Assembly (NCBI GenBank): GCA_012862575.1
Contig: BLSF01000045.1
Coordinates: 49,109-113,108, forward strand
DNA from: Parietichytrium sp. I65-24A
Lineage: Eukaryota > Sar > Bigyra > Thraustochytrida > Thraustochytriidae
Reading direction: 5' to 3'
DNA: 64,000 nt
Positions 8,048 to 62,606 of this stretch are shown piece after piece; the first letter of the stretch is position 1; the number at the start of each line of letters is the position of its first letter. The translations under genes and the position numbers were made by a program. The notes below the pieces were generated by a model. That model worked only from the letters and a program-made list of their open reading frames with translations. It had not been told where the DNA came from and ran no database searches.

Positions 8048-8110
8048 AGACGTCACTCGTCAGGTACTCCACCGCATGCATGCAAGACGTGGTGTGAAGA
8101 GTGTGAATGG

Positions 8111-16940: not shown

Positions 16941-17078
16941 CGGACTATTTCACTGTCAATGAAAAGTTTCTAAAATAGAAATAAAAGCCACACATTGGAA
17001 AACAATATCATTTCTATGTCATTCATTCGTCAAGCAAGTGTAAAGATAGTTAAGGTCAAAGGCACGAGGAAGGCGACT

Positions 17079-18505: not shown

Positions 18506-18799
18506 CTAGCAGCAGCAGCCGCTCTCGCGCTGCAATGTGCGGCCGCACGACACGCACTTGATTGATTTTTCTTTGCATCCGTTTACGACGAATGGGATCC
18601 AGCACACTGGCCAGAAAATGAAGAGGAGCGCGACGAAAGTGATGATCTGGCCGAGGCTGATGCGGGTCTCCCTTACAAGCTGTGGCCTTCCGCATGGGCA
18701 TTGCATCCCATTCGGCGAGATTCCCACAAGCTGCTGCGCAGGCATCTGTATCCCATTCTGCACATAATATACTGCTTGAGCCGGCGGTTGTTGTTGTTG

Positions 18800-18896
<97 letters not shown>

Positions 18897-26876: not shown

Positions 26877-27138
26877 GGCGTGTTGGAGAAGAAGTTAGAG
26901 TGTTTGTAAGAAATCATCAAGCCCATCCTTTTCATTTCTTCTGGCACAAGCCAATCAAGTTCGGGAACTCGGACCAAGCGCAGCAGTTTTGATAAGGAGC
27001 GCGGTGTTCTCACCCACAAGTGGCTTTACTACTTTTAAAAAATTGCAACAAAAGCGAAAATTTTCATGATGGGGAAGCATTCAAGTTTGATCCTTACCAA
27101 GATGAAGAGCATGAAAGGAGCTCCAAAATGAAGGTGTT

Positions 27139-39582: not shown

Positions 39583-42031
39583 CTCTTTCTCTCTATCTCC
39601 CAAGTCGCCGCACTCCTACCAGGTCACATGGTCACTCCTAAGCGCTTCCAAAACCCCGACGTTAAGAGCTATCCACTCGTTTCTATAGTCTTCACCGGCG
39701 ACCGGTACACACCTCTTCTATGGACGACTAGTAATCTGCGATCCAGTGGAGCGGGGCTACTGAGTTCTATAGATTGCGGTGGGAAAGTCGGTGTGAGGGG
39801 CGGGGGGGAAGTTGACCAATCAGGAGCGGAGATTGCTCGGAGGAGAAGGAAGGGTGAGGGAGAGAGAGGGATAGAGAGGGAGAGAGATGTGAGAAAAGAA
39901 CAGAGAAACAGAGAGAAACAAACAAAGGAAGGACTGAAAGCTTTACTAGAAGGAAGACACTCTTGACGATAAACACTATCAATGACCGCTAAATTTACCG
40001 AGCGATGACTACTACCCCGTTCGTCTAATCCCTCATAAGCCTTTTATAGAAGCTAAACCTGTGCACTAGCACTACTAATGATTACGAGAGCACTCCTAGG
40101 ATGTGCACTACTCTTATCCCTCTTGACTAAGTAAATCTACTGGAGCCTTTGGAGAAGTGGTGTTTTCACACCTCCACTGCCTAGTGTAATCGTTAGCGGC
40201 ACTTTAACCCAAAACTGAGATCTGATACTAAAATTGACTGTTCCAAAACGTATTATTCCAGTCAATTCGATTTTCCTTTGACTGATTGAATCTGATTGAT
40301 CCATCCACATCTCAACGAAAGAAGAAAACAATTGTTGTTCATCGACGGTCGTTTCAAATCCAACTTGCCCTTGTATATGTTCTGTAAAACATAATTTCAA
40401 TGAAACAGTCACGTCATTTCTTGCTCCTTCATCCGAATTCAGAATTCAGAATTCAGAATTCTGTATACTCAAAGATACACGTTCCGGCCAAGCCACGTGA
40501 CCGTGGACCTAAACCAGGGTGCCAGCTCGCAGCGTTTCTAACAGTAAATAAATTACGTCCATCTTAATTATAAAGAACTTGAACGCCGTCGCCGTCATCA
40601 CCGTGGACTCCGTGGACCTCGTGCAGCTCGTGCAGATCTCGGTCGATCGAACTTGTTCACATTCAGCTATCAACAAACAACAATCAACAATCGACAAAGA
40701 ACAACAACAAACGACAAACGACAATCACACCCTCGCGCCAAGCGAGCCCAGCGACTCGAACGCAGTGTCGCTCAGTCGATTGTGGAAAGAAGGTCGAGAG
40801 TGTCGAGAGCATCGAGAGCATCGTGCATAGAGCTCCAACATCGCCAACGCTTTCGCCTTTCATCCCATCGGCAGAGCCATTCCAAGGAGCGAGGGATTGA
40901 GCGAGGGAAGGAGGGCAAGGGGGGGCGCAATTATACTCTCTGTGTGCTGAGTACTCACAACCACTACACTGTCGACCAACTTGAACACTCATTTCATAAA
41001 AACATTTGATTCGATCAAGAACATAGCAAGTGACCAACGTTCACCAAAGCGTCTGCAGTAGTGACAACGTGCACACGCCCAGTCTGAGACTTGGGAGCAC
41101 CTGTAGACTCGGCATAGGCGCTGCATAGGAGGGGGATCCATCGCCGCAATAGCGAGATAGCCAAGTAGCAGGCCGGCTAGGTTTCGCATAGCACACACAC
41201 GAAGAGCTTGGCACAGGCCCAGTTTCTGAGCATTTGGTGAATTTGGTGGAGGCAAAGCAAGGAAGGAAAACCAGCAGAAGTGTATGGACGTTGGACCTGT
41301 CTGGGTCAGTGAATCAAAGAATCAAAGAATCAGTAAATCAGACCGAATCAGTGCGCCCTGGATCCACCACCGGCAGTCAGGCAGGTTTGGTGGGCTGGCG
41401 AAGCAAAGAAAACAAGAGCAAAGCGAATTGCCAAGCAAAACGCAGAGGCTTTGGCGACTTGCAACATCAGCGTTGAGAGTAGAATTCACTGCCAGAAGGC
41501 CACATTGGTTGCACACGTAAATAGGGTACTGAGTACGGAGTAGGCAGGTGGTAGCCGCCGTTCGGGGTTTCCGATTGTGTGCGCACTCCAAGTCTGCGCC
41601 TTTCGCATCGGGAGTGCTTGTGAAGGGGAGAGTGTTGTGACGCTGGTAACTCTCGAGTCCACGAGCCCAAATTCGCCATTTTAGCGAAGTGGATACCATA
41701 GGCGAGCTGCTTTTGGAAGTCGCGGACCAAGAAATCAGGCCTTTCACTGCAACGGAGAGCGCCGAGCAGAGCCCGCTTCCTGATAATCAAGGTGGCAAAA
41801 CCGCACGAGCTCACAAGTACGACCGAATAAATTAAGCGAGCTGTGCTCTCGCTTGTTCGTTCCTTTGGGGTGCACATACACAGATCAGTCTTTGAAGCGG
41901 TTTGTGCCATACACCGCATTCGTTCTCCCCCTCTCTGTCCGCTTTCAACCTGGTTGGCGTCATAAGTCTGCAAGAGCTCGAAGAGGAGCAGATCGGCAAA
42001 AGGCTGGTTGCCCACCTTATTTCGAAGCGAG
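38199..42031. other. Gene-poor region
   Basis: About 3.8 kb without a supported gene. It includes TTC (39392-39418) and TTTC (39548-39590) microsatellites, a purine-rich stretch (39785-39930), a GAATTC array (40435-40462) and the word TAACAGTAAAT near 40541. Open frames on both strands overlap without protein-like features. Confidence 0.5.
40435..40462. repeat. GAATTCA heptamer array
   Basis: Four GAATTCA(G) heptamers, the last ending GAATTCTG, in intergenic DNA. TAACAGTAAAT lies about 80 bp to the right, as it does near the array at 20666. Confidence 0.8.
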
Positions 42032-44431
42032 ATGAAAGCGTCCAGCGGTCTGCTGCTCGCGGCAGGCGCGGTGCTAACTCGCAGATCATCAGGAGCAAAC
42101 ACGACGGCGCTGTATGACAGCGGAGACGGGTTCACCTTGGACTGGACAGTAGACACAGCCACAAATGTGATCAAGTTCACCGCGATATCAGCAACCACAG
42201 GGTACGTCTCGGTCGGGTTTGCCTCTGGCAGCCGCTTTCACGTAGGTGGTGACTGCTTTACAGCATGGGTCGTCGACGGCGCGCCTGGATCGATTGATGC
42301 ATACTTTACTGACACGGGGTCTCCAAAGACGGACTCCTCACAAGATTACACTCTGGTGTCCGCAACCGAAGCGAACGGGGTCACCACGGTGGTGTTCACG
42401 AGACCAGTGACCCTAACGGATGCTGATGACTTCAACATCCTGAACCAGGCCCAATATATTTACTGGGCCGTTGGCCCGGACCCGCCCACTGGCACCTCCG
42501 ATTTCGATTATCACGACACCTACTCGAGTTTCCAAGCGAACATGCTTGATTCATCCGCAGCAGTGGACACCTCACAACCGCTCTTCGTGCTGGACCCTGG
42601 CTACGGTTTGCTGGGCTCGATTGTCGGCCCTTTCATCTTGTTCACGCTGTACAAACTGTACAGAGACTACGAGAAAGGAAGCATTCGGGAGTACAAAATT
42701 GTTTCCAACGAATACCAAAACCCTGTAGGCAGGTTCGCCAATCGCATGTCGATGGCCCTTGGCTTCAAAGGACGTGGTAACAGCGGGGGCATTCTTCCCA
42801 TGAACGGCAGTCAATACGGCGGCGGCGGAAGTCAGTATGGCGGCGGCGGCGGCAACCAGTATGGTGGCGGCAGTCAGTACGGAGGAGGGGACGGGCGCCC
42901 TGGCGGCTTTGGGCAGAGAATCAGTATGGCATTCAACTCTGTGCGCGAAAAGATTGTGCGGACAAATCTTGCCCCTAAACCAACAAACCCATCCGGGCCA
43001 GTCTACTCGTTCAAGAAATGGGGCAGAATTCGCCTCACGTCAGAAATGACGTACCTGCAGGCCTTCTTAATGATGCTCTTTGTGATCATCGCTGTCGCAT
43101 GGGTGTACCTTCCAGAAGACTATTCCGCAGCTGACGCCTGGGGGTACGTGTGCTGCGCGTGCGCCCTGCTCGTCGTTCTCCCAGCAACTCGCAACTCGCT
43201 TCTCACCTGGTTTCTTTTCGCTCCTTTCGAGCGGACCATCTTGTATCATAGGTATTTGGGACGCTTTACATTCTTGGCCGGTGCGCTGCACACCGGCTAC
43301 TACGTGGTGCAGTGGATTCAGAACGGGACCTTTTCTACGCAAATCGCTCGGCCAAAGATTCAGTACGGGCTGATCTCCATGGGAGCTCTGACGCTGGTGT
43401 TCCTCACCAGCTTCGACAAACTAAGGAGAAAGCATTACAACTTTTTCCGCATCATGCACTACTCTTTCTTTGGGTTTTACGTGCTTGGGACGTACCACAC
43501 GAGCTCGTTCCTCATCTACAGCGTGGTCGCCGGAGTCCTTTACGGCACGGACATCATCATGAGGTATGCCCTTGACCTTCGGCCAAAACAAGCCTACGCT
43601 GTGGACATTCTACCCGGCGAGGTTGTTCGCATCAGGTTCCCGAAGAACAACCTCAAGTCATACTCAAGCGGCCAGTACGTGTTCCTCAACTTTCCGAGCA
43701 TCTCCATGACGGAGTGGCATCCGTTCACGTTGTCTTCTGGGCCACACCAGGACTACCTTGAGGTGCATATTAAGGCTTTGGGAGACTTTACTCGGCAGCT
43801 ACTTGTGGAAGGTGGAAAGCTGGCAAGCGGACAAACGCGCAGCTTCCCGAAGGTTCGCGTTGATGGGCCATACGGCCGAATTTCCTTTTCGGTGAACCGC
43901 TATCAGAACCTTGTCCTCGTGGGCGGAGGTGTTGGAGTCACCCCGATGATTGCCGTGTTAAAGGAGCTGTTTCAGATCGATGTGAGCGACGAACAGAGAC
44001 GCCGGCACCCGATCAGCCCGCACGTTCGCAACGTGTATTTTCTCTGGGTCGTTCGCGACCCAGCGCCGTGGTCTTGGTTCTTTGACACCTTGCGCCAGGC
44101 CATGGAGGCATCCATGAGCGGAAGCACCAAAGGCTTTCCCAAGCTTCGAATCAAGGGATACATCACCCGCCCTGACGACAGCACCTATAACCTCCAGCAG
44201 GCCGTGTCCAACATTCCATTCTACTCCATCTCTGCCGGAAGACCAGATGTGGCCCAGATCCTCGATGGTGTGGAGAAGTCCATTGACGCCAGCGAGGGAG
44301 CCGGTCCGAAGCGCATCGGGTTGCTCACTTGCGGCCCGTCAAAGTTGGTGAACCAAGCCTGGGACGAGTCTCAGCGAAGAACACGCAAAGGCGTCATATG
44401 GGATGTTCACCGCGAGGAGTTTGACTTTTAA
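42032..44431 (+). CDS. DOMON plus NOX/ferric-reductase fusion protein
   Basis: 799 aa, intronless, starting MKASSGLLLAAGA, a signal peptide. Residues about 25-165 are a DOMON domain (heme or sugar binding, extracellular). A membrane helix at about 190-212 and a Gly/Gln/Tyr-rich linker (258-290, SQYGGGG repeats) follow. From 338 to 510 is a ferric-reductase/NADPH-oxidase membrane core with both heme-ligand pairs: His406/His420 and His476/His489. The cytosolic C-terminal half has the FAD motif HPFTLSS (about 563), DGPYGR, the NAD(P)H loop GGGVGVTP (about 631) and a CGP motif (about 767). It should move electrons from cytosolic NAD(P)H across the membrane to oxygen, metal or the DOMON heme. No EF-hands are visible, so calcium control is not indicated. 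Strong family call; substrate unknown. Confidence 0.88.
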   Translation: MKASSGLLLAAGAVLTRRSSGANTTALYDSGDGFTLDWTVDTATNVIKFTAISATTGYVSVGFASGSRFHVGGDCFTAWVVDGAPGSIDAYFTDTGSPKTDSSQDYTLVSATEANGVTTVVFTRPVTLTDADDFNILNQAQYIYWAVGPDPPTGTSDFDYHDTYSSFQANMLDSSAAVDTSQPLFVLDPGYGLLGSIVGPFILFTLYKLYRDYEKGSIREYKIVSNEYQNPVGRFANRMSMALGFKGRGNSGGILPMNGSQYGGGGSQYGGGGGNQYGGGSQYGGGDGRPGGFGQRISMAFNSVREKIVRTNLAPKPTNPSGPVYSFKKWGRIRLTSEMTYLQAFLMMLFVIIAVAWVYLPEDYSAADAWGYVCCACALLVVLPATRNSLLTWFLFAPFERTILYHRYLGRFTFLAGALHTGYYVVQWIQNGTFSTQIARPKIQYGLISMGALTLVFLTSFDKLRRKHYNFFRIMHYSFFGFYVLGTYHTSSFLIYSVVAGVLYGTDIIMRYALDLRPKQAYAVDILPGEVVRIRFPKNNLKSYSSGQYVFLNFPSISMTEWHPFTLSSGPHQDYLEVHIKALGDFTRQLLVEGGKLASGQTRSFPKVRVDGPYGRISFSVNRYQNLVLVGGGVGVTPMIAVLKELFQIDVSDEQRRRHPISPHVRNVYFLWVVRDPAPWSWFFDTLRQAMEASMSGSTKGFPKLRIKGYITRPDDSTYNLQQAVSNIPFYSISAGRPDVAQILDGVEKSIDASEGAGPKRIGLLTCGPSKLVNQAWDESQRRTRKGVIWDVHREEFDF

Positions 44432-44912: not shown

Positions 44913-46273
44913 TCAAGCGGCCTCCTCCTTGCTATCAAAGAAGCCTCCCAGAACCAAATTCTCCTTGAGAATAATGTCCTTGCACGCGTCAAAGACTGTG
45001 CTGACGTTGTTGGTGTCCGTGGCACAGGTCTGCGAGACGCATTAAACATTCACGAAAAGCTCGAGTGTTAGGTTTGTCCAGTCTGCAACTCAAAATCAGT
45101 CAAACATCAAACGTGGGGAAGCAAAACTTACAATGTGGTGGTAGATTTTCTTGCTGGCTGTCTTCTTTCGCGACAGAAAAAGCTGCAGGCAGTAGCTTGC
45201 GGCTGCCTCGTAACAGGATTCGTACTCGTCGGAGCCGATCACCGCAGTCTGGGTGCCTGGGACGACGTGTGGGCCCTCAAAGTCAGTAAAGCGAGCGTCT
45301 GGTCCTTCGTCAACGCGGAAAGGACTGGTCACAAGCTTTTCACGGAAAAGGTCCCTCTTGTTGAGGAAGAGAATCATGCTGGTCTTGACAAACCACTTAG
45401 AGTTGCAAATCTCCTCGAAGAGGATCACTGCCTCATCCATGCGGTTCACCTTGTTATCCTCGTAGAGGACTTGATCGTATTCGTTGATGGCAGCCACGAA
45501 GATGACAGCAGTGACACCCTCAAAGCAATGGATCCACTTGCGGCGCTCATTGCGCTGACCGCCAACATCAAACATAACAAAGTCGACACCGTCAATTTTA
45601 TAGTGTTCTTCCACGATACCAGATGTACGGACGCGAGTGAGCAAAACATCCTTCGTGGTTGGAATATAGTCTTCCTTTGCGATGCGGTCAATAGACTCGC
45701 AGTAGTGTTGAAGAGCATCCTGACTGTAAAGTGTCGCGAGCACAGAGTAAAGGTAAGCACCGGCAAGGAACAAACAACCAAGAAATGAGCCGAAAGGAAA
45801 AACGAGCAACAAGCAACTTACACCTGAAAGTTGGAACGAGCCTTCCATGTGGCTTGGATGCCAGCGTCTGCCCAGATGGCTTTGATCATCTTACCAACAT
45901 TTTCGTCGATCATTGCAGTAGGGGCCTCGTAAGGGAGGCGCAACAGGCCCTCTGCAGCATCCTTGAGGCTGTCGTCATAAGGCCCAAACTCTGCGCTCTT
46001 CTGAATGACAGTTTGTATGTCGGAAATGACGTTCGAGTAGATGGTGAGGGCGGCCTTCTTCATCTCGGCGTCGGAAAACTTCTTCTCCTTGCCGTACAAC
46101 AACCTCATTTGCTTGAAGATGGTGCTTTTCCCAGACTCTCCCGCTCCGAGCAGGAGGAGCTTGATCCGCTTGTTCTCCACGTCATTGTCCTTTTTCGCGC
46201 GCCTCGCGATTTCCTTATCCTTCCTCTGCTCGTCGATCTCCGACTGCGACAGCTTGGATCCACAGACTCCCAT
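44913..46273 (-). CDS. Heterotrimeric G-protein alpha subunit 1 (three exons)
   Basis: Exons 46273-45822, 45723-45132 and 45029-44913 join to 386 aa; introns are GT-AG of 98 and 102 nt. A GTP-binding switch that relays receptor signals at the plasma membrane. It begins MGVCGSK, a myristoylation and palmitoylation signal. Visible motifs are the P-loop GAGESGKS (43-50), the switch I arginine in RVRTSG, switch [10 protein letters not shown], the base-binding NKRD, and TCATDT after the last intron. All catalytic residues are intact. The C-terminus, normally the receptor-contacting five residues, reads ENLVLGGFFDSKEEAA, longer than usual and without the Cys four residues from the end found in Gi/Go types. 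The first exon-plus-promoter stretch is partly repeated at 47115-48127, probably another haplotype. Confidence 0.93.
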
Positions 46274-46544
46274 TTTCCCTCGTCTCTGCGCGCACGCGTC
46301 AGCATCGATCAAAAGAACAACAATTAACGATTCCATTCCCAGGTACACAACCCAAAAGATCCATCCGCATCGCCACCGCAGATACACACACATGAGAAAC
46401 ATCACATCGACGGTCAGCAACCAAATTTCCACCTCATCAGCCACATCAAAAGCCTTATCCAAACAACAAATCCAAACAACAATGACAACATTCCCACAGC
46501 CTGCCGCCAGTCTCCACTCTTCTACAATACGCGCAAAGCAAATC

Positions 46545-46620
46545 AAATGAAATCAAATCAAATGAAATCAAATAAAATCAAATGAAATCAAACGAAATCA
46601 AATGAAATCAAATGAAATCA
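46545..46620. repeat. GAAATCAAAT repeat upstream of G-alpha 1
   Basis: About seven copies of a 10-bp GAAATCAAAT unit with small variations. The other-haplotype copy at 47660-47702 has only about four, a length polymorphism. Confidence 0.85.
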
Positions 46621-47033
46621 AAGCAGCACACATCTCCTCCAATACTAAATTACTCACTCACTCACTCACCTCTTCTTCTTTTGATCACGTCACCTCACTC
46701 TCACTCTCACTGTCACTCTCAGTCTCGCCCTGGCTGGTCCTCTTCCTCTTCCTGCGTGGCGTACGCGCGTACCCCTAGGTGTACGCGGCGGGAGAGGGAA
46801 GGGGCGGTCGGTTCCGGTCCTCTCTCCGTGTGCAAACGTGGGCTGCCTCTGCGGAGGTGCAGCGTCCGCCGTGGCTGGGGTGCGCGGGGAGGGAGGGCGT
46901 ACGCGGGAATGTTCCGCGCGGACGGGGAACGTTCTTTCTCTCTTCTGCCTGGCGACGCACCTGGTGGGGGCGGGGGTCCTCGCTCGGTGTGAGGGGAGAA
47001 AAGAGAGGAGAAGACTATCTCTGGCGATGTGAG

Positions 47034-47064
<31 letters not shown>

Positions 47065-47113
47065 AAGAAAGAAGAAGAAGAAAGAAAGAAAGAAGAAGAA
47101 AGAAGAGAGAGAA

Positions 47114-47114
47114 N
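47114..47114. other. Single-N contig junction
   Basis: Lone N. The left contig ends in GA-rich simple sequence. The right contig starts inside the G-alpha 1 first exon (AACTCTGCGCTC, equal to 45987 onward). The overlap of about 1.1 kb is 98-99% identical. Confidence 0.9.
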
Positions 47115-47401
47115 AACTCTGCGCTCTTCTGAATGACAGTTTGTATGTCGGAAATGACGTTCGAGTAGATGGTGAGGGCGGCCTTCTTCATCTCGGCGTC
47201 GGAAAACTTCTTCTCCTTGCCGTACAACAATCTCATTTGCTTGAAGATGGTGCTTTTCCCAGACTCTCCCGCTCCGAGCAGGAGGAGCTTGATCCGCTTG
47301 TTCTCCACGTCATTGTCCTTTTTCGCGCGCCTCGCGATTTCCTTATCCTTCCTCTGCTCGTCGATCTCCGACTGGGACAGCTTGGATCCACAGACTCCCA
47401 T
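47115..47401 (-). pseudogene. Partial second copy of G-alpha 1 exon 1
   Basis: First 95 codons of the G-alpha 1 gene (MGVCGSK start, P-loop intact), cut at the contig junction. Base differences from the left copy that I checked are synonymous (for example in KLSQSEI and MRLLY). The upstream 700 bp are also repeated. Most simply an unmerged allele of the gene at 44913-46273 rather than a separate pseudogene. Confidence 0.7.
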
Positions 47402-50400
47402 TTTCCCTCGTCTCTGCGCGCACGCGTCAGCATCGATCAAAAGAACAACAATTAACGATTCCATTCCCAGGTACGCAACCCAAAAGATCAATCCGCATCG
47501 CCACCGCAGATACACACATGAGAAACATCACATCGACGGTCAGCAACCAAATTTCCACCTCATCAGCCTTATCCAAACAACAAATCCAAACAACAATGAC
47601 AACATTCCCACAGCCTGCCGCCAGTCTCCACTCTTCTACAAAACGCGCAAAGCAAAGCAAATGAAATCAAATAAAATCAAATGAAATCAAATGAAATCAA
47701 AGCAGCACACATTTCCTCCAATACTAAATTACTCACTCACTCACCTCTTCTTCTTTTGATCACGTCACCTCACTCTCACTCTCACTGTCACTCTCAGTCT
47801 CGCCCTGGCTGGTCCTCTTCCTCTTCCTGCGTGGCGTACGCGCGTACCCCTAGGTGTACGCGGCGGGAGAGGGAAGGGGCGGTCGGTTCCGGTCCTCTCT
47901 CCGTGTGCAAACGTGGGCTGCCTCTGCAGAGGTGCAGCGTCCGCCGTGGCTGGAGTGCGCGGGGAGGGAGGGCGTACGCGGGAATGCTCCGCGCGGACGG
48001 GGAATGTTCTTTCTCTCTTCTGCCTGGCGACGCACCTGGTGGGGGCGGGGGTCCTCGCTCGGTGTGAGGGGAGAAAAGAGAGGAGAAGACTATCTCTGGC
48101 GATGTGAGGAGAGAAGAGAGAGAGAGAGAGAGAGGAAAAAGAGAAAAGAGAAAAGAAATAAAAAGAGAGAAACTAAGAGAGAGAGAAATTAAGAAACTAA
48201 GAAACTGACTGTGTTTGTGTGAGAGAGAGAGAGAGTTTGAGAGATACAATTCTTCGACCCCATTGACTACCCCTACCTCTATGGATATCTATAACAGTCC
48301 GCTTCTGCTATCCCAGGTGACTAGTATTCCTTAATACCGCGGGACTGTAGAAGCGAGTAGTCCCGGTTAGGCGATCGTAAGAATTCGCGTAGGAGTGGGA
48401 GAGAGCGAATGAGTGGGGAAAGTGACGGTCTCCCAGGCTCCCTCGTAAGAGCTCTTCACACAAGGGCGTACAGTACAGTTAGGTCGGTGGATAGCAGTGG
48501 ACGAGTTGAAAAAAGGAGAAATTGATGAGCGGGTTTGTGAGGAGAACTGGACCTTGTGAGGGAGCGAGTGAGTGAGTTGACTGTGAAATGAGGCACAGAC
48601 TAGCAGTTCACCTTAAATACCCTCTACCGTACTGAGTACAAGTGCTGCGTCAAGGCTGTACGTTTGCCACATTAGGCGGTACCACTGCAGTTCTAATGTT
48701 ATCGATAGGTATCCTGGCTGTCCAAGACGTGAGACGGCTTCTCAAGTTTCGCGTGGTCCCTCACAACCTTGTCAAGAGGGAGGTGGGTTTTTGGACCTTC
48801 ACTCTTATCCAAACAGCTATTACAGTCCAATAGTGGTCCAGACATTTGGCCACTCTCTCCGCCCTCCTCACAGCTCGGCGTAAGTGTGTGCTCCGAGTAA
48901 CCGAAGGTCCTGAGAGGGCGAGCGATTGCTACGCCATCGCATTAACCGTCGGCTATGCCAATGCAAAGGTGGACTCCACGCCTACGGTCACATAGCTCTA
49001 TGATCTAGCCGCCCCAATCATCCTCTCTCTCCTGTTCTTCCTCCGTTAGTGAGAAGGAGAGGAGCGAAGAAGGAAAGATGGACTAACAGTAAGCTGATTG
49101 AGAGGAGAGTGATCTCTCGTGAGGCGGAAGGTGGCTGAAAAGTTTGCAAAGTTTGCTAAATTTCATCGGTTTCTAGTCAACCATTACTGACCTGACTGAG
49201 AGTGAAAAGTCTATCACTAGTAGTATCTTCTCAACTCTGTGGTTTGTGCTAGGCGTCTCCACTCTAGAGCACACATAGGAATTGCATAGGGATACCAATA
49301 GGAGTTTGTGCCCCTGAGACTCGTTCGGAGGCGAATTGCTAAGACAAATTCTGGAATTTTATGAGGGAAGTGACCAAGTTTGTTATGATTAAGGTGTTAA
49401 AGTGCGGTACAGTGGCTTCTATTCCTTTTCCCTTTTTCTTTCTACTGATCCTTTGCTTGGAGATCTGGGGGGCGTCGATTTAAGGATGCCTAATTGCTCC
49501 TATACATTACTCGAAAATCTGGGGGTCTATCTTTTTGTACTCTTTTTATGTGTGTGCGCTCACACTTTTACATAAGCATTTTCGCTAAAGATGCGCTGGC
49601 GAGTTCACACGGTAACCTTCACTATGCCGGCTGAATGGTGTGTTACTTCGTACAACTAGCAATAATACTTAGTACTGCACTCAGCAATGAGATTGGAGAG
49701 AACAAAATGTTTTGTCTTTCAGTCTTGAACTAAAAAATCAAACAACTTTTTTCAGTTCAGAGTGTTCAGCACCCCACCTTCCGATAGGGTTTGTTTACGC
49801 TCTCACTTCGTGGCTTCACTTTGAGTGTTCAGAGATCAGAGTAGCTCACCGTCTACCCACAAACAAGTGCCAACCAAGCCTGCAAAATACAAATTATAGT
49901 ACACTCAGTCCTGACAGTGAGTACCGCCAGCGACCAGTAGATAGCTACTCTAGTCTAGAAGAAGGTCGGCTTGATTTTCTGGGGGTTCAGTGTGAGCATC
50001 TCGGTTCTCCAGTGAAGAACCGAACCTACGGAACCCGAAAGATGGCAATTTCTCATGATTGATTGTCTTGATTGATTGGTTAATTGATTGATTTCAATTT
50101 GATTGATTGCGTCGACCAAGGTTCGTGTTGTTTGTTTCGCTTGCCGAGTCTTCGCGAAGCGATGGGTAATCGAGTTCATGGGTTCACGAGGCCTCGGAGT
50201 TGCGAGATGTTGCGAGTGCGGAACAGACTAAATTTGACAAACTAACTGCAAGTGCTTGTGGTTGATGAACCCACACACCCACCCTCAATCAGGGCTCTGT
50301 GCAGACTCGGACGACGAAGCGACAGCGAATCATCGCGAGACGTGACAGGCGTGGCGAGCCACAGCGATCACTGACATCACTGACCCATTTGCGCTTTTGG

Positions 50401-52688
50401 GACAACGCTCCTCACGCACTGGTTCCTCGTACATCCAGGCACATGTGGAGCAGTAGGTCCGCGGTCTGGAAAATTCATAGCAATTTGCCGACGTGACCAA
50501 TGCAAGCCAATGCGGAAACGGAGAAAAGGAATGCCATTGTTGTCGCCGGAGTGGCAGTTCTCGGCGACGATGAAAGAACAGACGCCAAAGCCAGTGCTTG
50601 CGCAATTCGCCGTTCCATTTTCAGAAAGAAAAGGGGAAGATGCGAAGATGCGAAGATGCGGAGACGCGGGCCATACCTCGAGATGACTGCAAAGGTTTGC
50701 ACACCCTGGTCCCACTGTAGCGCTGTAGCGAGATTGTTTCTAGCTGGGCGGCCACGCAGCAGCAGTCGCTCGAAGCGTTGGTTGTACAGAACAGAAGAAC
50801 AACAAGGTGGCTTGTCCAGAGACATCCGCCAGAAACAAAAGGGTCGTGCAATGAATTATGAATCATGAGCCATGAACTATGTCTTGGACAGTGAGTGCTG
50901 CGTGGGTCGGAGCAAAATCTCGCGAAGAAAGGGGTGACGAAATCGCTTCCAGGCGAAAGAGCAGTGGTGAGCAATCGATTACTTCACTGTAGCAATGCAC
51001 ACCTGCAGCAAAGCGAATGAATTCTCTGAAAAGCTTTCGCGGTCGCTGTGCAAACGACGACTGGCAAGTCGCAGCCTCCCAGGTAAAAGGAACAGGAATC
51101 GGAAGCGCTTGGCGCTGGCGTGTTAGCTCATGGCAGCTCGCGTCCATCCTGCTTGAGATAGAAAGCATCGAGAGCGAGAATCCCTTTCGTCATGCATTCA
51201 TGCGTTATGCATTCATACGTTCATTGTCGATCAGCGTCGGAAGATTCGACGGCTCAATGCGAACAGACGGGAGAAGACTTTGGTGAAATCAACGAAGAAA
51301 CGTAAGCTGCATTGACTCGCCGTGTCAAAAGAACGAATTATTTACTCCTGTGACTCCTCTATACACTTTAGATTCATTCAAATGAAGTAATGTCAGCAGC
51401 AATTCACGATTCAGAATTTCAGACTTTCAGAAGTTCAGAATTCAGAATGATCAAAAAGTTTAGAACTTGAATTTTGGAGTTTCAGAAGACTTTTCAGACA
51501 CAGTTTAGCTCTAGGAGAATAGAACACACTCATGATGACCATTTGCGACGAACGATCGCAACTACGCTGGACTAGTACCCACCCCTCTCTCTCGGTAAGC
51601 TTCCTCTCCATTGTCCTTACTCTAACCCCAGCCTTACTACCCACCCACGCCTTTCGCTAGCACTTGCCACTTCGTTGTCCAGTCTGCACACTCCCGAACG
51701 TTACAGACAGTCTTATTGAAGGCTACCTCAGTGCCGTAACCCCTCCGCCGGCCCCCCTACCACGGAGTGCTATACCACACATAGCTTTATCCCTAAACAC
51801 TCCGAGTTTCCCCTTTCCCGGTAATCCCGGTACTCTCCCTCTCCCCTCATAGAAGTCTATTATTCACCTTAGTCCCTCTGGACTGCACATTGGTCATTGC
51901 ACAGCTCTCCCTCTCTCACTTGTCTCCTACCCATCACTTACCCTTTCCGCTAACACACACCTTGCTGCCAGTGAGGCTCTTACCCAGTCCCATCTAGTCC
52001 TATACTTTTCCATAAATCTCCCAGGGGATTACACACTTGGATGGGTTGCGCCTTAGGGAGAAAGGGCGTTTCTCTATAGTATCGCGTAGCCGCGGGGGAG
52101 GGTGGAGAAAGAAAAAAAAGTGGTGAGAAATAGAAGAAATAGCCATAAAAAGGGGGTAAAATAGGAGAGGGAAAACGGGAAAGGCAGGGTACGCGGGGAC
52201 CGAATTTCAGTGCGCGGACGTAAGTTAAAGTGTCCTCGCGAAACGTGGGACGGAAGCGGAGGATAAGGGGAGAGGCGTGTCGCGTGGTGCGTGGTGGTCG
52301 CGTTAAGCGTGGATGGACAGCGGAAGGAAGAGGGGATCAAGTGAAGTGAAAAGACACAGAAATAGAGAGAGAGAGAGAGAGAGGGAAATGAAAAGGAAGA
52401 GATGCGCGGCGGCTGACATTTTTTCTCTCTCTGTTGAATGAATGTAGATCTTAGGTTCGTGTTTGCTTTGACTTGTTTGTTTGCCTGGGCTTTGTGGAGG
52501 TGAAAGAAAGCTTGTGTGGAAACTAGTACTTTTGCATTGTAGAGGGTGCTCGACAGCTTTGGTCGTTCTGTTTGTTTTGTCGGCGTATCGGCTGGAGTCC
52601 TTTGAAAAGGAGAGAGAGAGGAGGTCAGAATTTGGAGTTTGGAGTTTGGAATCGAGGGTTCGGGAAAGAGGATTGAAGATCAGGCAAA

Positions 52689-54024
52689 ATGGGCTGCGGA
52701 TCGTCGAGTCTCACGGCCGAAGAGAAGCAGCTGGCGTCTGCTTCGCGAGCTATCGACAAGAAGAATAAGCTTGCGTACCAGGAGGAGCAAGCAAAGGTGA
52801 AACTGCTCTTGCTCGGAGCTGGAGAATCTGGCAAGTCAACCATCTTCAAGCAGATGCGCATCCTGTATGGAGCGCACCATGGTTACACCAAGGAGGAGCG
52901 GCTCCGATTCGCGCCTACCATCTATGGCAACATTCTGACCAACGTGAAAACCGTCCTGGAAAACACGGAGCGATTCTCTGACCTCTCGGACTCGAGCCTC
53001 AAGTCGAAAGTAGACAAGTTTGTCGATCTCCCAGACGGCAAGGACGCCAAAATCGACAGTAAAGTTGGCGAGCTTATCAAGGCGTTCTGGAATGACAGCG
53101 GATTTCAGGAGACATGGCACTACCGCAGCCACTATCAGGTGCAGGACGCACTGGCGTACTATTGCAGTGAGATCGATCGTATCATGGCTAGCGACTACAT
53201 CCCAACTCCACAGGACATTCTTCGCGCGCGCGTGAGGACCTCTGGGATCGTGGAGGAGGTCTACAAGATCGACGGCGTCACCTTTGTAATGTTTGACGTC
53301 GGCGGCCAGCGCAACGAGCGCAAAAAGTGGATTCATTGCTTTGACGAGTGAGTTTTGGATGAATTGGATCTAATTTGTGATTGAATTTTCGTCGCGCGCG
53401 CGCTGGTGTTCTGACAATCTTTACTCGATGGTCGTATTTGCGTCACAGGGTCACTGCTGTCATTTTCGTTGCTGCAATCAACGAGTATGACCAAGTGTTG
53501 TATGAGGACCAGACTATGAACCGCCTGGATGAGGCTGTGATTCTCTTCGACGAGATCTGCAACTCGCCATACTTCAAATCCACATCGATGATCCTCTTTT
53601 TGAACGTAAGTGTTTTCGGCCATCTTGTGCCTCCCCATCGACGCGCATACTAATTTTTTTTGTTTGATGTGACCTGGCTGATGAAAAACTACAGAAAAGG
53701 GACTTGTTCCGGGAGAAGCTTGCCGAGATCCCATTCCGCGTGGAGAACGGCGAGGACCAGCGCTACACGGACTACACTGGCCCGGTCGTTGTTCCTGGTA
53801 CCGCAAGCGCGCAGATGGGTTCGCAGGATTACGAACGCGTGTACGACGCAACCCGGCGCTACATCCTCCAGCTGTTCTTGAACCGCAACAAGAACAAACA
53901 GAAGGAGATTTACCACCACATCACCTGTGCAACGGACACCCAGAACGTTGAAGTGGTCTTCAACGCCTGTAAAGACATCATTCTTCAGAACAACTTGCGC
54001 GGGTCCGGCTTTGTCGGAATGTAG
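52689..54024 (+). CDS. Heterotrimeric G-protein alpha subunit 2 (three exons)
   Basis: Exons 52689-53347, 53449-53605 and 53695-54024 join to 381 aa; introns of 101 and 89 nt are GT-AG and the joins give CFDEVTAV and FLNKRDLF. Motifs: N-terminal MGCGSSS (acylation), P-loop GAGESGKS (43-50), switch I RVRTSG, switch [14 protein letters not shown] and TCATDT. A membrane GTPase like G-alpha 1, from which it differs at about half of positions, so the pair is not recent. The C-terminus [11 protein letters not shown] lacks the usual Cys and is longer than the canonical end. An AATAAA-type signal follows the stop at about 54119. SF3A2 begins 500 bp downstream on the same strand. Confidence 0.95.
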
Positions 54025-55673: not shown

Positions 55674-57209
55674 TCACGCCAAACTTGTGTTCGAAATACC
55701 GGCAAGCTCGACGCAATACATCTGCAGCAAACCGCCCTCCACCAATGAGGTATTCATACAGTCGCACACGTCCTGCCCTTCGCAAGGTGACAAGTCTTCC
55801 CGAAACCAGATTGTGGCCCCGATGCTCATCATGAACACAAATTGCACCACCGCGGCTAGCATTAGAACGAACCTTGGCGTGAACATGTGCAAGCGCCACG
55901 CCCTTCGCAAAGGCACACCAGCCCTCGACTCTAGCGCCATGCCTATCGAATCTGACAACAGTTCGGCGCCAATTTGAGCAGCAGCCCATCTTGCAAAGAC
56001 CCCGAACTCCAGCACGTTGTCGAAAGGATTTCCGTAGCTAGCATACATTGGGAAGCGAGCGTACAACACGTTGTTGCGAAACATGAAGAGCATCAGTGTG
56101 GAGCAAACAATGGCAGCAAACTCAAACGACATCTCGCATAGAATCTGCACCCCGTAAAAGCGCAGTCGCAATGTTTCAGTGGTCATGGCCTTCGACCCTG
56201 CACTGTGGAAGGTTAGAATGTCGGGCGCGATTTGTGCCTTCGAAGATCGGCGGAAGATGATCATCATCACAGATCGCGCGATTCGGTCTCTAGCAATCAT
56301 CGTGCTTCGGAGAGCCACTTCACTTACACTCTGGAAAATCACCAGAAATGCCAACATTTTAGAGTCACTGATGTTCGTCATTTCGAGCCGCACAAGCATC
56401 GCTCCCATAAACTGCACCCACGACACGAACACCCACGCCACCTCTTGCCGAGGCTGAAGCCCCTTCCCTGCTGCGTTTGGGTACACATAGATGTCCCAGG
56501 CGGTCTGGGTGCACAAGAACCGGCACCCCTCGCGGACGGCAGGGAGAAAGATACAGAACCTGAGGAATGTAAGACCTGCATTGTCTTCTGGGAAAAGCGG
56601 CCGCAAGTAGATGATTCCAGTCACACCAATCAACACAACCGCAACTTGAATCAGCAAGTGAAAGTGCACGCGGCTGTCGCGCGGAAGAGAAAATTTCAGG
56701 ACTACGGCAACTAAAATTGGCGGAAGAGCAGCATAGATCTGGTGGAACCACCTCAAGTTCTTGTAAATCGAGAAGATGAGCGTCGCGTACAGTAAAGTCA
56801 GCGTTACGATGACCCTTCGTATGGGAAAGTGCTTGCCAAGGTACTGCCCGAACAAAATTGAGAAAAAGAACAGCCCGCACAACCCAAATGTCGGAAAGCT
56901 AGCGAGTTCATTGGCCACACGATCTACAGAGGAGAAGTTGGCAATGATGACGCGTTCGCGAGCTCTGTAGTCAGCAAAGTACAAATCCCCGTCAACTACA
57001 TTGATTTTCGAACTCATAAAATCGAACTGAACATGTTTCACGTAGAGCAAAGACAGCCCCACGGGTATCGCGGTGATGAACGAATACAGCGACACCTTCA
57101 GTGCCATTCCCGGAATCTCCGGGACGCTTAAAATGTCCTTGCTGTCTGGTGAGCCATCGCCCTCGCTGTCAACGGATTTGTAGCTCCTGGCGCGCGTTGC
57201 CGCCACCAT
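55674..57209 (-). CDS. Uncharacterised polytopic membrane protein, family member 1
   Basis: 511 aa from the ATG at 57209 (MVAATRARSYKSVDSEG), chosen because it makes the N-terminus match the two paralogues. The frame is open upstream to an ATG at 57440; that extension is Cys-rich and contains a TTTTCTCTTTAG acceptor-like site, so an upstream exon or a longer N-terminus is possible. About nine or ten membrane helices are visible, beginning VSLYSFITAIPVGLSLLYVKH. Family-wide phrases include YARFPMYAS, PFDNVLEFG, RQEVAWVFVSWVQ and VSEVALRSTMI. Near the C-terminus a loop has the motif C-x5-C-x-C-x14-C ending GGLLQMYC. No family name is recognised. This is the most diverged of three tandem copies; a transporter, channel or enzyme role is equally open. 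Confidence 0.75.
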   Translation of the reverse strand: MVAATRARSYKSVDSEGDGSPDSKDILSVPEIPGMALKVSLYSFITAIPVGLSLLYVKHVQFDFMSSKINVVDGDLYFADYRARERVIIANFSSVDRVANELASFPTFGLCGLFFFSILFGQYLGKHFPIRRVIVTLTLLYATLIFSIYKNLRWFHQIYAALPPILVAVVLKFSLPRDSRVHFHLLIQVAVVLIGVTGIIYLRPLFPEDNAGLTFLRFCIFLPAVREGCRFLCTQTAWDIYVYPNAAGKGLQPRQEVAWVFVSWVQFMGAMLVRLEMTNISDSKMLAFLVIFQSVSEVALRSTMIARDRIARSVMMIIFRRSSKAQIAPDILTFHSAGSKAMTTETLRLRFYGVQILCEMSFEFAAIVCSTLMLFMFRNNVLYARFPMYASYGNPFDNVLEFGVFARWAAAQIGAELLSDSIGMALESRAGVPLRRAWRLHMFTPRFVLMLAAVVQFVFMMSIGATIWFREDLSPCEGQDVCDCMNTSLVEGGLLQMYCVELAGISNTSLA

Positions 57210-58388
57210 CGAGCACTTCGTCCTCGTGTGCGCCGTCTTCACTTGTCCGCACAACGTCACTGCATGCTTGTCCGCTTTCACGGATTGCAGGAATGTGGGA
57301 ATGCAGTCGTGACGCTTCCTGTCGCTTAGTGATAAATTGCAGCAACAGTCTAGATCAACTTTCGGTACATTGCTTTGACAGTCGAGATTTATGACTGGGT
57401 CAACTGGGCCTAAAGAGAAAATCGCAAAGCACCCAGACATCCAAGCAATACTCTCAAGATTCCATTCAGTTAGTTCGCTCTGGCTTTAAATAACTCTCAA
57501 CCCTCAAGCGAAACCTGGCTAGGAACGCCTACCACCACATTCAAGAATGCACTCTGATAGGTGCATTCCAACAGTATCGCGGTCTACTTTGTACTATCGC
57601 TATAATTCCGTTCCAAATTCACAGCGAATGACGAGCTCCTCACCGCGACAGCAGTCACAGCTTTCATCGATGAGAATTGCAATCTCAGTCAAGAAACCCA
57701 AGTCACCTACAGGCTCAACTCTGCGAATGTCAATCACTGTCAATCATCGAATGTTCTGAGTGTCAAATTGACTGCGAACTAGTGAAATTTGAACTGAAAT
57801 TGAACTTGAACTTGAAGAATGGTTTCTCAACGGACACTATTAGAGTATTTATTAATAGAAAAAGAATGGTGGCTAGCTCTCTGTGATCCAACTCATGAAC
57901 AATAAATCAATCAATAGTTTCCGAAAGCTGGAGTAGACAAGCATATCAACTTGTGCATCGCTTGTGATCAAGTTCCCCTGTCCTGTCGACTCATTTGTGG
58001 TTTATATTAACAGTGAATAGAGAATGACTCGCCCTCTGCGATCAAATTCTCATTGCGCCGGTAGTGATCAGACCTCACTGTCAATACCGTGAAATAAATA
58101 ATGATATGCCCATAGAAAGAATTGCTTGTGTTCACCAAGCAAAAAGATACGACATGCTCTTCGTCTGTCGCTCTTCTTCAAAAGCCAACACGTTGAGCAA
58201 CGCTAGACTCATTCATGCGAATATCCGCTTGTTCCTATTTGGCCAAAAGGCAAATCGCTCTTTCCAAGATATTCAAGCGAGGCACTAATCGCTCCACGCG
58301 AGTGCCTGAGTGAAGTTTGAACAATAGTTAGCTGAGGTACCAACAGCCCGACGACCCTCACAGGGACGCCAGCGCTACCACTTGGCAA
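57210..58388. other. Spacer between membrane-family genes 1 and 2
   Basis: About 1.2 kb. Holds the alternative N-terminal extension of gene 1 (57210-57440) and otherwise AT-rich DNA with TAACAGTGAAT near 58010. No separate gene supported. Confidence 0.5.
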
Positions 58389-59957
58389 CTAATTCTGCAC
58401 GTCGACACTCGCGACCTCTGACAGCTCCATGCAGTACATGTGTAACAATCCACCGGGTAGAATCCCACGCTCTAAACAGTTGCAAACATCTTCACCGTTA
58501 CAGGCATATACGTCATCGCGCAAGAGCGCTGCTCCTCCAAACGTCAAGACAACACCGAAAGTAACAGTGTAGGTCATTAACTTCCAGAACTTGGGCTTGA
58601 GAACGTAGGTCTTCAGCGCGTACTCTATTGGAACACCATCCCTTGCCTCAAGCACCATGCTAACTGTATCCACAGCGACTTCCGTGAAAACCTGTGCCAG
58701 CCCCCAATTGGTCAAACTCTTGAAATCCGGAGGGTTGTCGAATGGTTTGTCCTGCGTCGCATACCAGGGAAACCGAGCATACAAGATCCTGTCTCTGAAG
58801 ATGTACAACGTTATTACAGCTGCGACGATTGCTGCATACTCGACCAACATGTCCGAAAATATTTGGACTGCGTAGAAGCGCTGGCGCAAGATGTTCAGCT
58901 CCCTCTTCCTTTGGCCCGCACCCTTGCCATCAGTTTCCAATTTAGCTGGCGTCACTTTGGAAATTCTCACACGCTTACAAAGCGACGCAAAGCCTCTCTG
59001 CAGTAGCCTTTCCCTGCGAATAAGAGTCACCCGAAGTATGAACTCGCTTACGCCCTGGTAAATGACCACTGCCACGGCAGCTTTTGTGTCCCCTAGGTTT
59101 GCCAACTCAAGTCGCGTCAGGATTGCGCAGATTCCTTGAAGCCAAGCGACGAATACCCATGCAGTCTCGGGATTCGTCTCAACTCCCGAGCCGGCGATGC
59201 TTTTGTTAGAAGCAAGTTCCCATGCCGTCTTCGAGCACATCATTCTGCACAGCTCTCGGATGCAGGGATACAAAACGCAAAACCGAAACATGGTTGGAAG
59301 TATCTCGTTTTCCGGGAAATAAGGTCGAAGGAATACCACTGTGGAGACCCCGAAGATGATCACCAGAGACTGTAGAAGCATGTGAATATGCAATTTGGAG
59401 TCCTTGGGAAAGTATAATTTGAGCAGGATGGAAAATGTTATCCCTGGGACAAGCATGAAAAACCTTTGCAGCCGATCCCAGCTGTACGTGGACCCATAAA
59501 CGAAATAAAAGATGGTGAGAAGCGCTATCTTAAGGAACGCAACCTTTGCGGGAAACTGTTTCCCGACAAAGTTCCAGAACAGCACGGGGAAGTACATCAA
59601 CGCGGGCACATTCCAAAACGGGAACCCTACCAACTCATGCCAGATCCTATCATTCTCGCTCACGTCGTGAATGACGATGTGCTCTCGAGCAGAGTAGTTG
59701 ACCATGAACAGCTCTTCCTCCGGAACGTGGATGAGGTCCCTCATCATGCCATACTGGAAGTGTTTGATGTAAAGCAGCGTTGCCGACGCTGGGGCAGCCA
59801 CCAGCGCTCCGCACAGCGCCAATAGGACGGTCGTCAGCAAGCTCTTGACCAACGGCAGTCTCCCGATCACAGCAGCGCTGTTCATCGAGCCGCCTGACTC
59901 AATTATCAGGTCATGATCGCCGGTGTCGCGAGGTCCATCCGCCGCGTCCTGGTCCAT
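58389..59957 (-). CDS. Uncharacterised polytopic membrane protein, family member 2
   Basis: 522 aa from the ATG at 59957 (MDQDAADGPRDTG); upstream in-frame codons are not ATG. Hydrophobic helices begin with LLTTVLLALCGALVAAPASATLL-type sequence and number about nine or ten. A charged intracellular loop of about 50 residues lies near 320-370. Phrases shared with member 3 are nearly identical: HIHMLLQSLVIIFGVSTVV, FLRPYFPE, NPETAWVFVAWLQ, YQGVSEFILRVTLIRR, RFYAVQIFSDMLVEYAA, YARFPWY and KPFDNPPDFKSL. The C-terminal loop carries C-x5-C-x-C-x14-C with GGLLHMYC. Same strand as, and 1.1-1.2 kb from, members 1 and 3: a tandem gene family. Function not known. Confidence 0.8.
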   Translation of the reverse strand: MDQDAADGPRDTGDHDLIIESGGSMNSAAVIGRLPLVKSLLTTVLLALCGALVAAPASATLLYIKHFQYGMMRDLIHVPEEELFMVNYSAREHIVIHDVSENDRIWHELVGFPFWNVPALMYFPVLFWNFVGKQFPAKVAFLKIALLTIFYFVYGSTYSWDRLQRFFMLVPGITFSILLKLYFPKDSKLHIHMLLQSLVIIFGVSTVVFLRPYFPENEILPTMFRFCVLYPCIRELCRMMCSKTAWELASNKSIAGSGVETNPETAWVFVAWLQGICAILTRLELANLGDTKAAVAVVIYQGVSEFILRVTLIRRERLLQRGFASLCKRVRISKVTPAKLETDGKGAGQRKRELNILRQRFYAVQIFSDMLVEYAAIVAAVITLYIFRDRILYARFPWYATQDKPFDNPPDFKSLTNWGLAQVFTEVAVDTVSMVLEARDGVPIEYALKTYVLKPKFWKLMTYTVTFGVVLTFGGAALLRDDVYACNGEDVCNCLERGILPGGLLHMYCMELSEVASVDVQN

Positions 59958-61073
59958 GCTTTGGAGAGGCGCCAGCCACTCTTCCGCCCAACAAGCACAG
60001 CTCGCGGCCAGCTTCGACGCCGGCACTCGGTTTTATGACGATCTCCAACCTCAACTCAAACTAATGTGACCATGGAAGAATGTAAAGCACTTTCCCATCA
60101 AACTTGCAACACAAGTAGTTACCCCTCTCTCCTCAAGTCCATTTCCAACCTCGCTGCCAATTCTCTCATTAGGACTGCAAACTTTTCACATCCACACAAC
60201 AAACAACCCACCCAGCTCTCTCTCTCTCTTTCTTTCTCTCTTTCTCTCTCTCTCAACTCCTTGCATCTCATTCATGCGCTCCACTCTCTGTCTCTCACCG
60301 AGACAACTATTTACTCAACGGACACTTGTGTGGAGCAAACGGTGGACAGGTTTGCGAGCCTTCAGGTCGGACGAGGAGTTAGCGGCGCGTTAGCGGAGTT
60401 AGCGGCGCGTAAGGAGGGTTTGCTGTGACTGATGCAGAGATAGATTGATAGATTGATAGTTTAGATGGATAGATTTAGAAAATGGGTACACGATGGGTGA
60501 TGTGGTGTGGGTTGTTTATGGAGTTCCGAGCCAAGTCTGGAACCCATCCGTTCTCAGTGGGCAGTTCCTGGGTCTGCTGATGTCTGATAATGGTTGACAT
60601 GAGATGTTGCCGAGATAACTTTAGAGGCAGATCGAAGATTTAGAGTCCGTTCAGCGCTGTACTTTCAATCCGCTTCTCGTTCAACACCGATTTCTTATAA
60701 TGGACGGCCTGCTTGAGCGTCAAGGCTTTTTGAATTTGAAGAATTCCATTTGGGTTTCGCTGCAAATCGCCTTCACTGGTACGAAAGGTGGGATAGCGCT
60801 CAACTCAGGAAAAGGCGAGGGAAAAAACAAAAAACAGGCAGAGCCCGTACCAAATGATTGCCACCAAAATCTGAGGAAGATGTGGGCATCGAGGTCCAGG
60901 TCCAGGCCCAGGCCCAGAGGAGGAAGAATCCCTTGACCACAGCTGGGTGAGAAGAGTGTTTGCTTAAAGATAGGATGTTGAGATTGGAGTTTATGCGGCT
61001 TGCAAAAGCTAGAAAAAAAATCCGGAGGTCAACGGAGACCAAGTATTTAATAATGTTCGTAAATGCCAACTTT
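59958..61073. other. Spacer between membrane-family genes 2 and 3
   Basis: About 1.1 kb. A CT-rich microsatellite lies at 60214-60253, a GGTCCA/GGCCCA hexamer run near 60893-60917 and a short GATAGATT repeat near 60440-60470. No gene. Confidence 0.5.
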
Positions 61074-62606
61074 CTAAAGGGCCGAGGAGGTGCCGTTGAG
61101 CTCCTTGCAGTACATCTCCAACAATCCGCCCTGCGAGATACCATTGCCAACGCATTCGCAGATGTCCACCCCGAGACAGGTGAAGATGTCGTCTCGAAGA
61201 AGAGCGGTGCCGCCAAAAGTTAGCACAAGAGCAAGATGGACTGTAATAGTCAAAAGCTTCCAGAACTGTGGCTTCATTACATACGTCCTCAGTGCATAGT
61301 CTATTGGAACGCCTTCTTTCGACTCAAGCATCATGCTCAGCGAATCCACGACAATCTCTGCGAAAAACTGTGCCAGGCCCCAACTGGTTAAACTCTTAAA
61401 ATCCGGTGGGTTGTCAAATGGTTTGTCTCGCGTCTGATACCAAGGAAACCGAGCGTATAGGATCCTATCTCGAAACATGTACAACGTAACAACCGCTGCG
61501 ATGATCGCTGCGTACTCAATTAGCATGTCCGAGAAGATCTGCACTGCGTAGAAACGCAGTTGCAAAGCTTTTAGATCCTTTTCACTGCGTTCAAGCCTTT
61601 GACTTCCTTCGGCGGGTATCACTTTCGCGATCGTCACGCGCCTCGTTAGCGAGTCGAAAGCCCTTCGCATCAGCCGATCTCTCCGGATAAGAGTAACCCG
61701 AAGCAAAAACTCGCTCACGCCCTGGTAAATGACCACTACAGCGGCGGCACTCGAGTCCCCCAGGTTTGCCAATTCTAGCCGTGTCAGCATTGCGCAGATC
61801 GCTTGAAGCCAAGCGACGAATGTCCACGCTGTCTCGGGGTTCGTCTCAATTCCCGAGCCAGCAACGTTTTCGTCGGAAGCAAATTCCCACGCCGACTTTG
61901 TGCAGATGAATCTGCACAGCTCTCGAATACCAGGATACAGAACGCAAAACCGGAACATTGTGGGGAAGAACTCGTCCTCTGGAAAGTAAGGGCGGAGGAA
62001 TACTACTGTTGAGACCCCGAAGATAATCACAAGAGACTGGAGCAGCATGTGGAGCCACAGCCTTGAGTCTTTCGGAAAGAGGACTTTAAGAAACAGTGCA
62101 AACACGAGGCCAGGAAAGATTACAAAGAACCTTTGTAACCACAGCCAACCAAGATAGGCGCCACAAAAGGTAAAAACAAATGACACAAACACAACTTTCA
62201 GAACCGCGAGTTGGATGGGAAACCGCTTCCCAACGAAGCACCAGAACAGATAGGGAAAATACATCAACACAGGGACGTTCCAGAAAGGAATACCGGCCAC
62301 CTCATGCCAAACTCGATCCATTCCAGTTACCCTTTGGACCACGATTTGCTCTCGGGCAGTATAGTTCACTACAAAAACCTCCTGCCCTGGCACATGAATG
62401 AAGCTCCTCATCACTCCAAATTGGAAGTGTTTGACATATGCTAAAGTGCCAGCGGCTGGCAATGCTACCAGTATTGAGCAGAGGCCCAGGAGAACGGAGG
62501 TTGAAAGACTTTTTAGCAGCGTCAGCCTCCCGCGAGCCAGAGAACTCCTCAGCGAGCTGTTCAACGCAGTCGAGCCTGTCGGCGTGCGTTTAGCCCCATC
62601 GGCCAT
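61074..62606 (-). CDS. Uncharacterised polytopic membrane protein, family member 3
   Basis: 510 aa, starting at ATG (MADGAKRTPTGSTALN). About nine or ten membrane helices, beginning LSTSVLLGLCSILVALPAAG. It matches member 2 closely, so the two come from a recent duplication; member 1 is older. Shared phrases include VKHFQFGVMR, LFWCFVGKRFP, MLLQSLVIIFGVSTVV, NPETAWTFVAWLQ, YQGVSEFLLRVTLIRR, IFSDMLIEYAAIIAAVV, RILYARFPWY and KPFDNPPDF. The Cys loop reads CLGVDICEC ... GGLLEMYC. Strong conservation in the helices and the loop suggests a shared biochemical role, which I cannot name. Confidence 0.8.
   Translation of the reverse strand: MADGAKRTPTGSTALNSSLRSSLARGRLTLLKSLSTSVLLGLCSILVALPAAGTLAYVKHFQFGVMRSFIHVPGQEVFVVNYTAREQIVVQRVTGMDRVWHEVAGIPFWNVPVLMYFPYLFWCFVGKRFPIQLAVLKVVFVSFVFTFCGAYLGWLWLQRFFVIFPGLVFALFLKVLFPKDSRLWLHMLLQSLVIIFGVSTVVFLRPYFPEDEFFPTMFRFCVLYPGIRELCRFICTKSAWEFASDENVAGSGIETNPETAWTFVAWLQAICAMLTRLELANLGDSSAAAVVVIYQGVSEFLLRVTLIRRDRLMRRAFDSLTRRVTIAKVIPAEGSQRLERSEKDLKALQLRFYAVQIFSDMLIEYAAIIAAVVTLYMFRDRILYARFPWYQTRDKPFDNPPDFKSLTSWGLAQFFAEIVVDSLSMMLESKEGVPIDYALRTYVMKPQFWKLLTITVHLALVLTFGGTALLRDDIFTCLGVDICECVGNGISQGGLLEMYCKELNGTSSAL

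Follow-up and report, generated by a model that had tools for sequence, protein, structure and literature searches.

A divergent family of predicted eleven-helix membrane proteins with an invariant charged core in the thraustochytrid Parietichytrium

In the stretch of DNA analyzed here (64,000 nucleotides of Parietichytrium sp. I65-24A, contig BLSF01000045.1 of assembly GCA_012862575.1, positions 49,109 to 113,108 of the forward strand; hereafter, the window), three related genes stand in tandem on the minus strand, each encoding a polytopic membrane protein with a cysteine-bearing loop near its C-terminus. A preliminary description of the locus had reported three open reading frames (ORFs) of 511, 522, and 510 amino acids on this strand, and the coordinates and lengths bear it out. 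What are these proteins, and how many more of them does the organism possess? The features that our answer needs are listed below, with transmembrane segments abbreviated TM and residues numbered after member 3 (P0003).

55674..57209, minus strand: family member 1, 511 amino acids, intronless, from an ATG giving MVAAT, with the frame open upstream as far as 57485
55713..55784, minus strand: member 1 Cys loop, C-x5-C-x-C-x14-C (hand count on the translation)
58389..59957, minus strand: family member 2, 522 amino acids from its ATG, intronless
58431..58502, minus strand: member 2 Cys loop, C-x5-C-x-C-x14-C (hand count on the translation)
61074..62606, minus strand: family member 3, 510 amino acids, intronless, source of the reference numbering
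61107..61178, minus strand: member 3 Cys loop, C477-x5-C483-x-C485-x14-C500, predicted outside (hand count)
61323..61967, minus strand: member 3 conserved core, TM6 to TM10, residues 214-428 (hand count), with core sites E229, R276, E299, R303, R309, E364, Q413, E417, D421, and E428

Judged by their alignment scores, the three are homologous far beyond chance: a genome search with P0003 returned member 2 at E 2.5e-228 (65% identity) and member 1 at E 1.8e-113 (38%), and overall, identity is 64-65% between members 2 and 3 and 37-38% between members 1 and 3. Because 69% of synonymous sites but only 22% of nonsynonymous sites differ between members 2 and 3 (pS 0.69, pN 0.22), we regard these two as genes under constraint, and the ratios of nonsynonymous to synonymous divergence (dN/dS) for the two tandem pairs of the family that have diverged least, 0.22 and 0.14, likewise point to purifying selection; in the other pairs compared, synonymous sites had reached saturation. 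The spacing C-x5-C-x-C-x14-C, ending in GGLLxMYC, is identical in all three, as had been described. Four phrases had also been assigned to the whole trio (YARFPWY, KPFDNPPDF, NPETAWxFVAWLQ, and GVSEFxLRxT); they hold letter for letter in members 2 and 3 only, and member 1 carries in their place YARFPMY, NPFDNVLEF, RQEVAWVFVSWVQ, and SVSEVALRST.

The trio is thus a real set of relatives, but it makes up 3 of the 39 genes of a larger family. The assembly searched comprises 42.5 Mb in 172 contigs, and its gene content is eukaryotic (SF3A2 and G-alpha are examples). P0003 matched 45 stretches of it, and after collection and rescoring, the union stood at at least 40 loci on 21 contigs, that is, 39 genes and one fragment. 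Five family members served as queries, with overlapping sets of matches: P0003, then the members at loci L020 and L022, which added loci, and those at L027 and L025, which added none. The figure of 40 is a lower bound, because the search scored the best candidates only, and since every match of the five queries was a family locus, no bridge to another family appeared. Seven of the genes are found on the window's contig (C45), in the stretch from 104.8 to 146.3 kb; six of them are on the minus strand and one is on the plus strand. In the family tree, where 10 genes split from the other 29 with full support (the root serving for drawing only), the window trio lies inside the group formed by these seven.

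Does such a family have a name? The preliminary description could give it none, and neither can we, for Pfam, NCBIfam, and the sequences of the Protein Data Bank (PDB) yielded no named family with any consistency. All 39 genes were scanned against Pfam, 22 rows at E up to 0.1 and 19 rows (two of them shared) at E up to 1, with the first piece standing for eight of nine genes that are split in two and the second piece for the one on C94, and no plausible family recurs among them. NCBIfam gave no consistent match in the 22 genes of the 39 that were compared with it, and profiles run against PDB sequences found nothing better than E 0.33. Pattern-based scans of viral contigs and prokaryote genomes returned no close relative, tblastn of P0003 against phages returned no relative, and in a literature search aimed at such a family, none of the papers listed described one in its title or abstract opening. 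We are left with a sizeable and real family that carries no name in the libraries searched.

Several isolated hits were rejected. In the 19 rows, DUF6007 (6e-4) and others each touched a single row, and Cadherin_C_2, in 2 of the 19 with a best value of 0.019, was set aside as weak; in the 22 rows, Cytomega_TRL10 (0.034) and Colicin_im (0.065) had one row each, as did a dehydratase (0.0029) and PsiE (0.092) in NCBIfam. PMT_2, a model of the GT-C glycosyltransferases, was absent from the 22 rows and matched one of the 19 at E 0.0036, an isolated value that we take as chance.

It is the strictness of the conserved core that gives the family its character. At R276, E299, R303, R309, E364, Q413, E417, D421, and E428, the 39 rows that reach each site all agree, in a family where identity to P0003 drops to 17% among 22 aligned members. 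The strongest invariants include charged residues within the membrane, which the preliminary description did not mention. Five TM10 sites (Q413, E417, D421, C/S424, and E428) fall within an arc of 80 degrees and run the full length of the helix, a tightness equaled by 0.4% of random picks of 5 of 21 positions, the sites having been picked after their conservation was seen. Position 424 is Cys in 32 rows, Ser in 6, and Gly in 1. The majority-polar columns of TM7 also lie within 80 degrees, and those of TM8 do likewise.

A core of this kind might be an active site. One could imagine a membrane-embedded enzyme, such as a lipid- or glycan-modifying transferase, whose acidic and arginine residues in TM6 to TM10 would open to the cytosolic leaflet, and it speaks for such an enzyme that E299, R303, E364, D421, and E428, all in the inner half of the membrane, are kept in 39 of 39 rows. 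We nevertheless consider it unlikely. No column that is invariant or close to it holds a histidine, in which the family differs from membrane enzymes of the MBOAT and CREST types, with their invariant catalytic His; no enzyme family matched consistently, the lone PMT_2 hit (in 1 of 19) aside; and 39 catalytically intact paralogues of one enzyme would be unusual.

How these proteins sit in the membrane can be approached from family-averaged hydropathy and charge, which yield about 11 hydrophobic segments rather than the nine or ten helices first proposed. On the predicted sides, lysine plus arginine per residue comes to 0.14, 0.29, 0.20, 0.16, 0.20, and 0.18 in the inner loops and to 0.10, 0.09, 0.03, 0.06, 0.08, and 0.08 in the outer loops, the alternation from loop to loop that such an arrangement would give. 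From this charge bias, together with the hydropathy, we infer 11 TM with the N-terminus in the cytosol and the C-terminus, Cys loop included, outside. The loop itself is a signature of the family and not of the trio only: 39 of 39 rows have its second and third cysteines, 38 of 39 have the fourth, and, once a shift of a few residues is tolerated, 39 of 39 have the first (the rows being 38 genes and the fragment, with the piece of the C28 gene stopping before the loop and the C71 row stopping before the fourth Cys). Disulfides or metal binding had been suggested for these cysteines; given the predicted outside position of the loop, we favor disulfides, and metal binding, for which we found no evidence, seems less likely. 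Four cysteines on the outside suggest two disulfides, the pairing being one we infer.

The predicted plan of eleven helices with the N-terminus in and the C-terminus out is also that of the amino-acid/auxin permease (AAAP) transporters, and at ~450-550 amino acids, the family resembles them in size. The agreement in topology comes by charge bias only, and the plan is common to unrelated families. Might the family then be a very divergent branch of a described superfamily (e.g., the amino-acid/auxin permeases or TMEM16/OSCA/TMC) that has drifted beyond the reach of sequence profiles? Profiles built from one genome are weak, and the predicted permease-like plan is what such a branch would display. 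Against this stand the absence of any such Pfam model in the 39 genes at E 0.1 or 1 (Aa_trans included) and the lack of a TMEM16, OSCA, or TMC match in Pfam for the 39 genes or among PDB sequences. The family also differs from the AAAP transporters in its invariants, E, R, Q, and D in TM6 to TM10 with four cysteines predicted outside. To us, a hidden branch of this sort seems improbable, slightly more so than the enzyme.

The reading that we favor, tentatively and short of calling it probable, is that the members are transporters or channels that have diversified, each with a charged pathway through TM7 to TM10 and an outer cap locked by disulfides. TM7 to TM10 would form the walls of a polar pathway or cavity, in which TM10 would be the pathway helix (Q413, E417, D421, C/S424, and E428) and E299 and R303 of TM8, E364 of TM9, and R276 of TM7 its partners; the outer loop, pinned by its disulfides, might close or shape the extracellular mouth. 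Differences in substrate between paralogues would be carried by the divergent TM1 to TM5 half and the outer loops, so that one charge-driven mechanism could be common to all members with the cargo differing from one to the next. It is the strict intramembrane charges, with one polar stripe running the full length of a helix, that suggest to us a common charge-dependent mechanism. Put more broadly, and going by sequence, the members are probably transporters or sensors.

Several observations weigh against a transporter or channel. In TM9 and TM6, the majority-polar columns are spread over more than one face (arcs of 200 and 220 degrees), and the helix boundaries were placed by eye. N-glycosylation sequons reach their highest density in outer loop 1 (1.87 per 100 amino acids) and are sparse in outer loop 9 (0.18), but the predicted inner loops 6 (0.89) and 8 (0.60) contain them as well, and because of this, the sequons leave the sides unsettled. 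No transporter family was matched in Pfam, NCBIfam, or PDB sequences. Many transporters have an internal repeat, and here none was found, whether the first half of the profile was compared with the second or the whole with itself. The preliminary description had proposed a profile search and a structure prediction; the former gave no consistent match, as recounted above, and the latter, an AlphaFold model built on the sequences of the trio, reached a mean predicted local distance difference test score (pLDDT) of 36.9 and a predicted template modeling score (pTM) of 0.31, which makes it unusable. Finally, the inner halves of the helices are more conserved than the outer halves (0.409 against 0.346, P 0.0017, with TM7 reversed), and this pattern would also suit a receptor whose cytosolic face is conserved.

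That receptor deserves a hearing of its own. The 39 genes would, on such an account, form a repertoire of chemosensory type, in which a conserved cytosolic face (P225-x2-R228-E229, E299-x3-R303-x-T305-x3-R309-D310, and D421-x6-E428) engages one effector common to all and a variable outer half binds different ligands. The genes are numerous and divergent, partly tandem, and in 30 cases, single ORFs, and the better-conserved inner halves suit the idea; moreover, 13 G-alpha loci above the cut-off and a partial duplicate occur in the genome, and two of the loci and the duplicate lie beside the window's cluster. Expanded paralogues, a more conserved cytosolic side, and many G-alpha genes are indeed what one would see with G-protein-coupled receptors (GPCRs). 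The family departs from the 7-TM plan of GPCRs, however, in its ~11 predicted helices and in the opposite predicted side of its N-terminus; no 7TM Pfam model matched any of the 39 genes; and the invariant charges cross the bilayer, reaching beyond the cytosolic face. Of the 12 contigs with G-alpha above the cut-off, the family occurs on C45 only, and for that reason, we set the linkage aside as evidence for receptors. A receptor repertoire ranks next after the transporter or channel, as a possibility that we hold with considerable doubt.

Insect odorant and gustatory receptors, together with the GR-like proteins of protists, are another point of comparison, since they too form tandem, divergent families of inverted topology (N-terminus in, C-terminus out); they have 7 helices and are shorter, and no Pfam model of this kind matched any of our 39 genes. 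The boldest proposal would be a new superfamily with a fold of its own, a labyrinthulomycete repertoire of ~40 eleven-helix receptors or ligand-gated channels with inverted topology, TM10 as a polar pathway helix over its full length, and a disulfide-capped outer mouth. We rate this as the least likely of the readings given here; if true, the family would play a role in this protist like that of the odorant receptor families in animals.

Protists commonly have membrane families that are restricted to one lineage, and ~40 genes without a name in the libraries searched leave a sizeable set of this protist's membrane proteins lacking annotation. Should these genes prove to encode a repertoire of transporters or of receptors, they would reveal how a heterotrophic protist senses its environment or feeds on it. 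Because the intramembrane charge pattern is so strict, the family should be easy to recognize elsewhere, and the pattern supplies exact residues to test.

The genes also hold some history. Nine of the 39 are in two pieces, with GTAAGT present between the two pieces in all nine (loci L026, L019, L016, L018, L028, L032, L033, and L015), and the gaps would be short introns starting with that sequence. One putative intron position is common to the genes on C24 and C101 and the two on C40, another is common to those on C13 and C34, and those on C14, C28, and C94 each have a position of their own; eight of the nine fall in the TM9 stretch. Several positions suggest that gains within sub-clades fit better than one ancestral intron, with losses or sliding as the alternative to repeated gain. 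The single fragment of the family repeats the end of another member:

L034 2764-2937 (G000:C32:163263-163436): 58-residue C-terminal copy of the C45:118044 gene

Its 58 residues on C32 are identical to the tail of that gene over the stretch compared, and it is apparently a recent partial duplication.

Adjoining the trio are two G-alpha genes and a partial duplicate of the first, which contains one or more unread bases (45096-46552, minus; 47015-47527, minus; and 52677-54024, plus). Farther off in the window, a single ORF at 41966-44431 (plus) encodes both a DOMON domain and a ferric-reductase/FAD/NAD module, and an ORF at 25824-26876 (plus) carries teneurin-like EGF repeats. At the end of contig C16 (L041 ~1-1440), a copia-like reverse transcriptase, recognized by eye only, precedes an 18S rRNA 3' end, which has a form seen in stramenopiles. 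The exact LABY-A primer site is matched nowhere in the assembly, but the searches recovered 18S in its 3' part only, so the missing site carries no weight. By itself, the genome makes a labyrinthulomycete host probable. A 4180-amino acid ORF with an SAT domain (G000:C40:230771-231592) resembles the large single-chain fatty acid synthase of thraustochytrids. The genome search found no chlorophyll a/b-binding protein, and among 11 carrier-domain matches in the genome, there was no closely spaced array as in polyunsaturated fatty acid (PUFA) synthase. Type I thraustochytrids, Schizochytrium aggregatum included, are reported to have the elongase/desaturase route only (PMC11951076). Two giant ORFs of 4460 and 5583 amino acids, with carrier domains ~3-5 kb apart, lie at G000:C7 ~19811-27643 and G000:C66 ~7956-22997 and appear to be polyketide-synthase-like.

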